NCBI RefSeq assembly: GCF_003259225.1
Contig: NZ_QHJF01000005.1
Coordinates: 1 to 64,000, forward strand
Reading direction: 5' to 3'
DNA length: 64,000 bases
DNA from: Marinomonas arctica
GTDB taxonomy: Bacteria > Pseudomonadota > Gammaproteobacteria > Pseudomonadales > Marinomonadaceae
This document shows, in pieces, positions 28,860 to 32,016 of this stretch. The notes under the pieces were generated by a model that ran no database searches, was not told where the DNA came from, and was given only the letters and a program-made list of their open reading frames with translations. The position numbers were made by a program, and so were the translations under genes. Each line of letters begins with the position of its first letter. The first letter of the stretch is position 1.

Positions 28860-29120
28860 TCACCACTTTGAGTAATCATTGTGAATAAACGAAGGAGTAA
28901 AATCAGCCGACGCTTTATCAAGCTTTTCACCGCAATATGGACAGAATAGGACATTTATCGCCACATGCTCAATAGTTTGACCAACCTCTTCTAAGTAATG
29001 ATTCTCTTCTAAATCTTGTTCGGTTGCGACATTATTTATATTTAGTGACCACTCACCTTGATCATTTTCTATCCATGCTTCTATGGCTTCCATGCTTTTG
29101 CATTTATGAACTTTAACCAA
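28860..29120 (-). CDS. Small zinc-ribbon-like hypothetical protein
   Basis: 86-residue protein of unknown function. It ends with an FCPYCGEKLD rubredoxin-like knuckle near residue 60, and HKC near the N-terminus could complete a metal site. The start is TTG at 29120 with GGAG 7 nt upstream; the first ATG (29093) lacks a ribosome site. The GGTTAAAG at the start resembles the R' core that often abuts cassette gene starts. Soluble, acidic, no signal peptide. Its orientation and setting match the other cassette-like genes of the island. Confidence 0.6.
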   Translation of the reverse strand: MVKVHKCKSMEAIEAWIENDQGEWSLNINNVATEQDLEENHYLEEVGQTIEHVAINVLFCPYCGEKLDKASADFTPSFIHNDYSKW

Positions 29121-29398
29121 TGCGTGCTCCGTTATTGCTCATTATTTTAATAGTACGCATGCGCGTTTAGTCTTTTATCCACAGCACGTTATTCCTGTGC
29201 TGTAGATTCTTATTCATTGATTCTAAAAAACTTTCTGATTCTCTGCCAGTACAAACACGTTTAAACATGATTGTTTATCACACAAATCAGGCAATAATTG
29301 GCAATCATAAAAATAAACGCGATATCCGCACGACCTCTATCAATTTGTTATGGTATGTTTGAGGAATGAGGTGGATACAACCTAATGCTAGATTCGCT

Positions 29399-29457
29399 CT
29401 GACGCGTTGAGCTTGCGAAACAGGCGCAAGCGAAGCAAACACCAAAGTGAGATATAG
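29399..29457. repeat. Dispersed repeat, copy 1
   Basis: 59 bp starting CTGACGCGTTGAGC and ending GTGAGATATAG. It matches 31623-31680 with about four substitutions and one 1-bp indel. The two copies are direct repeats 2.2 kb apart and bracket the yefM, GFA and C39-like genes. Confidence 0.9.
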
Positions 29458-29576: not shown

Positions 29577-29600
29577 AGCTGCCTGACGATGAAGCCTAAA

Positions 29601-29864
29601 TTAATAGTGGTAACGGCAAGAAATGATCGTGATAGCACTATCATCAACCACATAAACTAACCTATTCACATCATCTATTCGTCGCGACCAAAAACCGGAT
29701 AAATTTTCTTTTAATGGCTCAGGTTTACCTATGCCCTCGAAAGGAGAGCGCTTAACATCCGTGATGAGTTTATTTATGCGTTAAAGTGTTTTCTTATCTT
29801 GCGTCTGCTAATAAACATAACAATTCCAAGATTCATCAGTCCAAGATAATAAACGACTACTCAT
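29601..29864 (-). pseudogene. yoeB: yoeB toxin gene inactivated by two nonsense codons
   Basis: The full 87-codon frame of a YoeB/Txe-type endoribonuclease toxin is readable from MSSRLLSWTDESW to ISCRYHY, including SPFEGIGKPEPLK, LSGFWSRRI and RLVYVV. Codon 19 is TAG (29808-29810), where homologues have Trp, and codon 28 is TAA (29781-29783), where homologues have Lys. There is no frameshift. The catalytic Glu/Arg/His and terminal HY region are intact but cannot be reached by translation from the start. It overlaps the 3' end of yefM by 8 nt, the normal yefM-yoeB layout. A remnant reinitiating downstream would lack the first third. Confidence 0.88.
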
Positions 29865-30111
29865 CGATTAAATCCCTTTGGCTCACCTTACCCACTTTAA
29901 ATTGAGCAATTGAACGATGTAAGTGCTCAGCATTTGCCGGAGAACGAAGCAAATGAACCGTTTCCATTAAGCTATTGTAATAATCCAGTGACATAACAAC
30001 GGCATCTTCAGAATCACGACGCGTGATCACGGTTGTATCTGCGTCATTAACAACAGCATCCAAAACGCTCTTCAAGCTATTCCTAGCTTCAGTAAAAGAT
30101 ACAATTTTCAT
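29857..30111 (-). CDS. yefM: YefM-type antitoxin (Phd/YefM family)
   Basis: 84-residue antitoxin and autorepressor. The N-terminal DNA-binding part MKIVSFTEARNSLKSVLDAVVNDADTTVITRR and the DAVVMSLDYYNSLMETVHLL segment (about 37-57) are typical of YefM. The C-terminus (about 60-84) is the toxin-neutralising tail. The gene is intact with a GGAGG Shine-Dalgarno, although its partner yoeB carries two stop codons. It may persist as an orphan repressor able to neutralise YoeB encoded elsewhere. It is located in the cassette island, and type II toxin-antitoxin cassettes are common in integrons. Confidence 0.9.
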   Translation of the reverse strand: MKIVSFTEARNSLKSVLDAVVNDADTTVITRRDSEDAVVMSLDYYNSLMETVHLLRSPANAEHLHRSIAQFKVGKVSQRDLIDE

Positions 30112-30149: not shown

Positions 30150-30206
30150 GCTTTGAAACTAACTTGTACAGCTAATGGAACATGCGAACTTGTATGCCGC
30201 TTGTTC
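30150..30206 (-). repeat. Possible degenerate attC between the GFA gene and yefM
   Basis: The spacer has a short palindrome (GCGAAC...GTTCGC, 30185-30207), a direct repeat of AACTTGTA and a GTTAG core-like element. An attC is expected here between two cassette genes, but the arms pair poorly, so this is weak. Confidence 0.25.
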
Positions 30207-30211
30207 GCTTC

Positions 30212-30625
30212 TTACCCTTCTGCTTCAAAATGAGCAAATACTTCGGCACCAGTCATATTGTGTGTTTCGTTCTTGAACTCATAGTATTCGGGCTTTTCAT
30301 CAATAAAGATTTGGTGGGTAAACGTAAAACTGTTATCAGTTTTCAGTAAGCCGATAGGTAGATGATACTGATTAGCAGGCTTAAGGTAGTAAAATAAATG
30401 TGTTCCACATTTTTTACAAAACCCCCTTTCCGCCCATTCTGATGATGAATATCTTATGACACTGGTTTCATCAGATATTTTTACAGAATCAGCGCAGTCG
30501 ATTGCTAGCATTGGACCGCCACCCCAATTGCGACACATACTACAGTGACATGCCGCTATCTCGCTGCTGGCATACTCGACTTCTAGAACTACCGAACCAC
30601 ATAAGCACTTACCATTACCCTTCAT
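30212..30625 (-). CDS. GFA-family (glutathione-dependent formaldehyde-activating-like) zinc protein
   Basis: 137-residue member of the GFA/CENP-V fold. It carries the family cysteines CLCGSV near 9, CHCSMCRNW near 26 and CKKCGTH near 69, which bind two zinc ions. Members are often misnamed as formaldehyde-activating; the real substrate is unknown. GFA proteins are frequent in integron cassettes. It is a single gene on the minus strand between attC-like sites, with its own AGG-type ribosome site. Confidence 0.85.
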   Translation of the reverse strand: MKGNGKCLCGSVVLEVEYASSEIAACHCSMCRNWGGGPMLAIDCADSVKISDETSVIRYSSSEWAERGFCKKCGTHLFYYLKPANQYHLPIGLLKTDNSFTFTHQIFIDEKPEYYEFKNETHNMTGAEVFAHFEAEG

Positions 30626-30665
30626 ATTGCCTCCAACACTTTTGTATGAGTGATACTTTTCTTCA

Positions 30666-30742
30666 GCTAATGCCCGCCATAAAAGGCGCGAGGAACGAGC
30701 GTCCGGCGACCGTAGGGAGCGAATTTAATGGCCTTGTTATAC
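30666..30742 (-). repeat. attC-like recombination site
   Basis: 77-bp imperfect palindrome. The outer elements are GTATAAC (minus strand, 30742-30736) and GCATTAGC at the other end. The arms AAGGCCATTAAA and TTTTATGGCGGG pair across a centre containing CGCTC/GAGCG. The TAA stop of the C39-like gene lies inside the GTATAAC core, which is typical of cassette genes. The core bases deviate from RYYYAAC/GTTRRRY at one or two positions. Confidence 0.65.
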
Positions 30743-31153
30743 ATTCTTGACCTTGATGAACCACTTGGGCTGCATTTCATTGAAGTCAGTTCGAATGTTA
30801 GATGGCAGATAACTTGCTGAATCCAGAACAAATTCCTCACCATCTATGCGCTTGAAAACGACCCAATGCCAGAAATTTTTGCCATTTTCCTGATGATACT
30901 TGATGGATAGCAATGCCAGATCGGGGAGTGCTCTCCATGATTCAAAAGGGATTTCATCGGAAGACGTCTCGACTCCAGCACGGGACAGCATTTTCCTTAC
31001 ATATTGGGTATCAGACCAAAGCGATTTATCTTCAGCATAGATACCCATAGCATTTGCTGTTGCTTTCATCTCCGAATAGGTCTTTCCAAGAATGTAGGCA
31101 ACAGACGCAATTCCGCACCCCGTGGTTTCTTCCTGTATTACGGGCTTAAGCAC
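30737..31153 (-). CDS. C39-like cysteine peptidase family protein (cassette gene)
   Basis: 138-residue protein resembling small papain-like C39-type domains. TTGCGIASVAYILGKTY places the putative nucleophile Cys13 at the start of a helix, WHWVVFKR supplies the His near 96, and EEFVLDSASYLP the Asp near 109. No signal peptide or ABC transporter is attached, so it is probably cytoplasmic; such stand-alone proteins are common in integron cassettes and are uncharacterised. AAAGGAG lies immediately after the preceding attC core, and the stop codon lies in the following attC core, making this a complete single-gene cassette. Confidence 0.72.
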   Translation of the reverse strand: MLKPVIQEETTGCGIASVAYILGKTYSEMKATANAMGIYAEDKSLWSDTQYVRKMLSRAGVETSSDEIPFESWRALPDLALLSIKYHQENGKNFWHWVVFKRIDGEEFVLDSASYLPSNIRTDFNEMQPKWFIKVKNV

Positions 31154-31162
31154 ATTTCACTC

Positions 31163-31238
31163 CTTTAACGCATAACAATTAAGAGCTATACGGCAGCGTG
31201 GCTGCGGCTATAACCCACTGTTGAACAGCTGCGTTGTC
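31163..31238 (-). repeat. attC-like recombination site
   Basis: 76-bp imperfect palindrome. The outer GACAACGC/GCGTTAAAG cores are complementary over AACGC. The inner stem pairs TATACGGCAGC with GCTGCGGCTATA, with one mismatch and one bulge around a GTG loop. The TGTTATGCGTT near the R' end is the same string seen in Vibrio repeats. It lies 10 bp upstream of the C39-like gene, where the attC of the previous cassette would be. Confidence 0.6.
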
Positions 31239-31290
31239 TATATAGGGGGTTGCTTTTTTCATGATAGGACTTCCCTGTTATATAACTCGC

Positions 31291-31437
31291 TCAATACCAA
31301 AATCTGTTTGGACGATGCCGCTTCAGATCGTCTTTGATCGCCACTATGTTGGTTCTTTGTTTGCCCTTTTTTAGCGCGATTTGACCCGCGAGGCAAGCAA
31401 TTCCCTCAGGTCTTATGAGCTGATCCGTTTTATACAT
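31291..31437 (-). CDS. Possible small basic ORF (48 codons)
   Basis: Begins MYKTDQLIRPEG and ends RHRPNRFWY, with a strongly basic C-terminal half (LKKGKQRTN, DDLKRHRP). A weak GGGA stands 7 nt before the ATG. It lies just before an attC-like palindrome on the same strand, where a cassette gene would be. No family recognised; it may be the remnant of a longer gene. Confidence 0.3.
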   Translation of the reverse strand: MYKTDQLIRPEGIACLAGQIALKKGKQRTNIVAIKDDLKRHRPNRFWY

Positions 31438-31601
31438 TAATATCCCAAGTTGGAATACAAATCGGTCGAATGAAAGCTAAATTTCGATTCGCCTATAGGT
31501 CAGACCTACAAAAGATTTTAGACAATCAAAAAAATTAAATCCCTTGACGCGCTAAAGAACGATCCACAAAAGCCAATATATACAGGTATTACATCAGCCA
31601 T

Positions 31602-31680
31602 TCACCTTGGTTTGATTTTGCGCTGACGCGTTGAGCCTGCGAAACAGGCGCAAGCAAAGCAATACCAAGGTGAGATATAG
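31602..31680. repeat. Dispersed repeat copy 2 within a larger palindrome
   Basis: 31623-31680 matches 29399-29457. In this copy the outer CACCTTGGT and ACCAAGGTG (31603-31611 and 31665-31673) pair perfectly. An inner GCCTG-CGAAA-CAGGC hairpin sits near the centre, giving a cruciform-capable element of about 75 bp. Confidence 0.85.
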
Positions 31681-32016
31681 TACGACGCCCTTTTGCCACG
31701 AAGAAGTCAGTTCGACGCGACGAAGTTGCGCGACGTTATGGCGTTTCAGGGTCAGTTAAAAATATCGTTTCTTTAGACTAAACAACCAATCTATGCCTTA
31801 CGATACAAGGAGCGTAGGTAAAAATGATGTACCTATGAAAGAAATCAGGCATTAAAGATCTTAAAGCGAATTTTTGCTTTTCTTTATAAGGTAAGTTTTG
31901 GGCGCTTGCAAAAAGTTATCCGCTCAGCATTCACTGAATTGAAGAGCGGAATAACCTTTAGGAATACAAAGCCAATAAGAGGATTCAGAAGAAAGAAAAG
32001 AACAACCCCATCTTCA

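Follow-up and report, generated by a model that had tools for sequence, protein, structure and literature searches.

The attC boxes of integron cassettes follow the consensus RYYYAAC for R'' and GTTRRRY for R' (PMC12901181), and two attC sites are the threshold for a CALIN (PMC9892861). In Shewanella, genomes with and without intI carry SALINs and CALINs (PMC9229058). An attI that heads an array without an intI of its own has been described in the M16-3 case (PMC9892861), and attI duplicated away from intI is known from the delta-attI cassettes of class 1 and class 2 integrons, in which a piece of attI replaces the attC downstream of a gene, inside the mobile integron (PMC12901181).

In the window (the whole stretch of DNA that was analysed, 64,000 nucleotides), a palindrome lies between a C39-like peptidase gene and a GFA-family gene. 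With a probability of roughly 0.8, we read it as the attC of a mobile C39-like cassette that was most likely inserted in trans, at a locus carrying an attI copy without intI, in an array that would now be frozen. One strong attC and a weaker upstream attC were found at the locus, without an integrase, and counting the weaker site would place it at the CALIN threshold; the arrangement of a complete integron, with intI beside attI and cassettes, was absent.

The attC site and its cassettes

The features of the locus are as follows.

28860..29120, minus strand: short ORF, weakly matching a zinc ribbon (PF13248, E 0.0076, below cut-off)
29143..29330, minus strand: predicted orphan attI-region copy, in cassette-reading orientation (from the repeat, the intI loci of relatives and model R3)
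29857..30111, minus strand: YefM-like antitoxin ORF (PF02604, E 3e-23)
30204..30670, minus strand: GFA cassette, to the limit of homology with genome G037, starting with TTAGCTG at the crossover
30212..30625, minus strand: GFA-family ORF, 137 aa
30664..30742, minus strand: predicted attC of the C39-like cassette (R'' 30742-30736, GTATAAC; R' 30671-30665, ATTAGCT)
30671..31175, minus strand: C39-like gene cassette, crossover to crossover, edges by comparison with genomes G054 and G037
30737..31153, minus strand: C39-like peptidase ORF, 138 aa
31170..31226, minus strand: predicted upstream attC (GTTCAAC ... GTTATGC), somewhat decayed, by comparison with G054

The initial annotation had claimed a palindrome at 30666-30742 between two unrelated genes on one strand, with the TAA of the upstream gene inside GTATAAC, and all of this was borne out. 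The full site measures 79 bases (30664-30742), is read on the minus strand and separates the C39-like ORF (Peptidase_C39, PF03412, E 0.0021, below the Pfam cut-off) from the GFA-family ORF (PF04828, E 9.3e-16) on the same strand; the ORF coordinates (30737-31153) place the stop codon (30739-30737) within the R'' box. Measured against the consensus, GTATAAC keeps AAC and is off at one Y position, and ATTAGCT keeps TTA, is off at one R position and has A in place of the crossover G. This A is the exception among 24 aligned attC sites, 23 of which have G, in a C-G pair, at the crossover. A spacer is present between the R and L boxes. Neither the A at the crossover nor the attI-region copy 1.3 kb away had been remarked on in the initial annotation.

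Both edges of the C39-like cassette were located by comparison with relatives. In genome G037, of the same genus, the GFA gene stands at the corresponding place in the chromosome (95.3% alike). Homology with the window sets in exactly with TTAGCTG, whose first base (30670) directly follows the crossover, and ahead of that point G037 has another attC-like sequence, which ends in G. On the opposite side, G054 is 86% alike over 31170-31498, a segment that spans the upstream attC (91% over 57 nt), whose boxes read GTTCAAC ... GTTAGGC in G054, with GTTATGC as the second box in the window, and whose inner arms, GGGTTATA and TATAACCC, are perfect in G054. Past this attC the homology with G054 stops at GTTA and a different gene or cassette follows. 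The break points with G037 and G054 therefore put both ends of the C39 cassette (31175 and 30671) at integron crossovers. The upstream attC was visible only by comparison with G054 and was missed by both attC models, R1, which includes the window sequence and scores there by construction, and R2, built from R1 matches outside the window; the two models found one attC in the window, and switching off the filters around the site added no other. No convincing attC was seen at the 3' end of the GFA gene, in the window or in G037. A YoeB-like toxin frame after the YefM-like antitoxin ORF (29600-29860, minus strand) seems interrupted, as read by eye.

Outside this genome, a BLAST search with the site returned a match on an E. 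coli chromosome (94.4% over 72 nt, E 1e-22), near a relaxase gene, and one on a Salinivibrio plasmid (91.7% over 72 nt, E 2e-20), between two other genes, both ending at the edges of the attC boxes. An exact 25-mer of the attC core was present in 30 stretches from 29 other genomes. Aligned on this core, the loci were similar from the R'' to the R' box and unrelated outside, except that L018, L024 and L027 lost the pattern before R' and L041 departed there. An IntI above the TIGR02249 cut-off was encoded by 16 of these 29 genomes, compared with none of 14 controls. At L033, L042 and L043 the site lay on the upstream (attI) side of intI, and at three same-genus loci (L126, L127, L128) an attC of the same kind lay on the attI side of intI and pointed away from it. 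A phage search with the window attC gave no match. In a Salinivibrio locus (L012), a DUF1801 gene and a hypothetical gene flank the matching attC, and a site-specific integrase paired with a transposase lies 2.5 kb away.

The covariation alignment (A1) comprised 23 of the 30 25-mer loci and the window site; L018, L024, L027 and L034 (no R' end found), L033 (contig end), L041 (wrong cut) and L046 (organism and site of L043) were left out. Across the 24 sites the lower stem covaried (GCCAT/ATGGC, CACAT/ATGTG, GCAAT/ATTGC), with 10 compensatory double-change cells, where shuffling gave a mean of 1.4 and none of 500 shuffles reached 10, and 95.8% of the stem cells were paired, compared with 26-48% when slid. 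Folding of the bottom strand, which the initial annotation had proposed as a check, does not carry the attC identification: the energy was ordinary (z 0.22; 113 of 200 shuffles folded as well) and the bulged base is ambiguous. The stem is supported by covariation. The top strand gave a z of 0.95 (166 of 200 shuffles folded as well), and on either strand the palindrome did not fold beyond shuffled sequence (200 shuffles each). In the attC family, one A is bulged from the bottom strand between two parts of the helix; in the window site a substitution permits a symmetric mismatch in its place, and this extrahelical base could be drawn either way. The fold with the 1x1 mismatch reached -5.0 and the bulged drawing -0.9, values that are not strictly comparable, since the bulged one forces the R pairs. 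Because the crossover G has become A and the extrahelical base is ambiguous, the window attC is probably inactive or weak.

The unremarkable fold energy would equally suit a terminator, a REP element or another gene-end palindrome, and REP-like repeats do lie close by (29391-29457 and 31601-31681). We nevertheless regard such an identity as refuted and extremely improbable, since conservation stops right at the R'' and R' boxes and the flanks are unrelated, the cassette edges fall at the crossover and intI-linked copies exist. In an Rfam search of the window, only a TPP riboswitch and a tRNA were found, with no match at the palindrome. Judged by its sequence, the palindrome is a genuine integron attC, apparently slightly decayed, because the same element stands between unrelated genes in many genomes, its stem covaries, an integron integrase is encoded in this genome as in the 25-mer genomes counted above, and both cassette edges lie at the crossover in the same-genus comparison. 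The attC identity and gene-end overlap put forward in the initial annotation, the layout expected of a cassette, thus find support in distribution, covariation, crossover edges and IntI.

The C39-like protein has a 71% match on a P. aeruginosa plasmid, and its relatives occur on plasmids in 15 records. In three of these plasmid records that were inspected, no integron was annotated adjacent, and a search of the three loci with R2 found no attC.

attI-region copies in the window and the genus

The repeat at 29157-29326 recurs within the genome, and the same sequence stands immediately upstream of intI in the intI loci of four relatives. Its interpretation as an insertion-sequence end was dropped, since a sequence that adjoins intI in relatives is the attI region. 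Thirteen aligned attI copies end in GCATGCGCACTATTAAAATG^TTA and each differs beyond that point. As read from these alignments, the segment 29143-29330 is a copy of the intI-adjacent attI region with a part deleted: about 105 bp are absent between two GCGCATGC repeats, and its crossover is degraded (AAAATA^ATG at 29143/29142). The copy lies, without intI, between pepD and a ferredoxin-like gene, and the first gene past it is the zinc-ribbon-like ORF at 28860..29120. At the same pepD spot, G035, G037 and G047 also carry an attI, with first cassettes that differ by eye. The pepD intervals of the other relatives in the comparison gave no attI match, several of these stretches stopping short of the ferredoxin-like gene, and tblastn of the 11-kb pepD intervals of ten relatives detected no IntI.

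With a cut-off of E 1e-5, a model of 98 positions of the attI region (R3), built from 13 copies, six of them from this genome, gave 229 matches. They were spread over 43 of the 48 same-genus genomes, with up to 12 per genome and 12 in this one. Many copies were also found in genomes without an IntI above the cut-off (G053, 12; G059, 8; G096, 8; G038, 6). A set of 49 matches, mostly the best of each genome and so not drawn at random from the 229, yielded 45 distinct copies, and 38 of these retained the crossover motif. The 38 were similar up to G^TTA and dissimilar beyond: mean pairwise identity ranged between 0.81 and 1.0 over the crossover base and the positions up to +3, and between 0.24 and 0.37 over positions +4 to +40, and although the positions of the crossover motif had been used to select the copies, the drop from +4 is independent of that selection. 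Downstream sequences shared little beyond pieces of about 70-100 bp, the exceptions being three copies with one common insert and two overlapping stretches of contig C106. A G-to-A trend at the crossover was considered and dropped, as A occurred in 1 of the 38 motif-bearing copies, under a filter that admitted G or A only.

In 30 attI loci, all 23 attC matches (E 0.05 or better) lay on the cassette side of attI and on its strand, 7 in loci with an intact intI and 16 in others; the attC sites of this genome on contigs C106, C29, C46, C39 and C85 were likewise on the cassette side and strand. These placements bear on the reading in which IntI put the cassettes into ordinary secondary, attG-like sites and the attI-like repeat is unrelated. 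Cassette insertion by integron integrases at attG sites has been published (PMC12901181), as have scattered single attC sites in Shewanella (PMC9229058). Against this, the repeat is the region that adjoins intI in relatives, and attC sites placed consistently on one side and strand of it, in the 30 loci and in this genome's own contigs, make insertion at attG-like sites unlikely here and difficult to sustain for the genus.

Toward intI, the similarity of most orphan copies ends near ATATACAG, at a point about 45 bases short of the intI start. L146, L149 and L155 differ at this limit, and L157 keeps the entire upstream region with no recognisable IntI. The C39-GFA segment of the window is found on the intI side of its orphan attI, whereas other attI loci have their cassettes on the cassette side. 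As the locus is now arranged, the orphan attI therefore was not the point at which these cassettes entered, and one has to suppose a second attI or a rearrangement. Contig C106 carries two attI copies 1.1 kb apart, so attI tandems do occur.

The crossover-core pattern was found at 7 sites in this genome and at 1 in 368 other genomes of the class, a draw from which Shewanella may have been absent. With the attI region, a plasmid search gave no match, and a phage BLAST search returned only the phage of the published case (PMC9892861), in two records. Seven IMG/VR contigs contained the crossover-core pattern, with no IntI in the flank examined. These contigs, predicted as prophage (L161-L167), carry a Shewanella-type attI, and the sequence that follows its crossover differs from contig to contig. 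Phages may use orphan attI as a loading point.

REP-like repeats flank several attI copies. The REP-like repeats of the window (29391-29457 and 31601-31681) and other short repeats at 31695-31879 recur near attI copies and contig ends, and a paper on REP elements in Marinomonas may describe repeats of this kind (PMC8266576).

Integrase genes and the mode of insertion

The only IntI above the TIGR02249 cut-off in this genome is encoded on contig C59, where it starts 103 bases from the contig end; the window lies on contig C63, with no integrase nearby. Contig C39 begins with an attI region, and the ends of C39 (1-150) and C59 (1-102) have a common terminal sequence flanking the 8-base repeat TATATTTG, which is single in relatives. 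From these shared contig ends and the repeat, we infer that an unassembled insertion sequence separates attI from intI. The split point falls within what looks like a LexA box; the insertion sequence is probably in the intI promoter and may change SOS control of intI.

Across the genus, 20 IntI matches above the cut-off were found in 18 of 48 genomes, at most two per genome. For 17 of the 20, an R3 match lay 128-138 bp from the intI start (129 in G047), which together with the sharp drop in identity after the crossover marks the family as attI; the remaining three belong to this genome (split contigs) and to G044 and G050 (no R3 match). An insert common to G034, G085 and G095 (L139, L140 and L142 1810-2661), 91-99% alike over 1385 bp, starts precisely at the crossover of attI and codes for a tyrosine recombinase that is about 25% like IntI; L153 (G046) has the same beginning. 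This insert accounts for at least some partial TIGR02249 matches in the genus. The ORF after the recombinase in L142 may be an IS91-type transposase.

In the mechanism that we favour, an integron integrase would have folded the bottom strand of attC in a cassette circle and joined the circle at the crossover, giving the order C39 cassette, attC, GFA cassette in one orientation. Insertion was most likely catalysed in trans, because no integrase lies at the locus and the single IntI of the genome is on contig C59. The attI copy would have been brought to the pepD spot by some other process, and similar copies elsewhere in the genome and genus head different cassettes; REP-like repeats might conceivably have moved them. 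We think that this part of the array is now frozen, as the attC crossover base has become A and the orphan attI is partly deleted.

Action in trans would be needless if the interval from pepD to the ferredoxin-like gene had formerly held a complete integron, which lost intI early in the history of the genus and has since been decaying by descent. A long-lost intI at this spot would explain the same facts, the decay is visible (mutated crossover bases, a part-deleted attI, an interrupted toxin frame), and several attI-rich genomes lack intI, as listed above. Yet relatives have different first cassettes at the crossover of the same spot, no piece of intI was found in the ten intervals, and genomes with up to 12 attI copies have at most two intI. 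Independent loss everywhere, in most cases with an end close to one common point ahead of intI, is also the less simple account, and we hold such a remnant to be possible but somewhat doubtful.

Beyond insertion in trans at this one locus, a wider proposal is made tentatively: one chromosomal integrase might serve many scattered attI docks in trans, the integron then being a distributed system and not a single array. Under the same tentative proposal, up to a dozen attI places per genome could each receive and drive their own cassettes, and the pepD dock would be one in decay. If orphan attI copies are used in trans, cassette capture and expression would not be bound to a single intI-adjacent array, and orphan cassettes, usually taken for remains, could mark sites that are still active in insertion and have a promoter region of their own. 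Tools that search for attC and intI without an attI model for the genus would then miss the link among scattered cassettes. The genus provides natural replicates, with the same spot holding different cassettes.

Comparison with known systems

The site resembles those of cassettes in the chromosomal integrons of Gammaproteobacteria in having R'' and R' boxes, with the departures from consensus given above, its imperfect palindrome and the gene end that overlaps R''. The G^TT crossover at the cassette edges and the presence of the same site in intI-linked first cassettes are further likenesses; the A at the crossover of the window attC and the locus without intI are differences. The attI core is almost the same as the published Shewanella-type attI (PMC9892861) and resembles, at its end, the core of the class 2 attI, AATAAAATGTTRRRY (PMC12901181).

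As in CALINs and SALINs, the cassettes are scattered far from the integrase. Unlike in the Shewanella account, whose available text mentions no attI (PMC9229058), attI-region copies head many of the loci here. Beyond the M16-3 case and the delta-attI cassettes, attI copies scattered through a genus were found described nowhere in the open-licence papers searched, which is weak evidence of absence. The likeness to M16-3 is that an attI heads an array lacking an intI of its own; that case, as described in the available text, concerns one such array in one prophage (PMC9892861), whereas up to 12 attI-model matches per chromosome were found here, genus-wide. With the delta-attI cassettes the common point is an attI duplicated away from intI, and contig C106, with its two attI copies, may resemble that type. 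In contrast to the delta-attI pieces, the copies here are nearly complete attI regions that lie upstream of cassettes across the chromosome. The attC by itself is ordinary; the many stray attI docks in the genus are less so.
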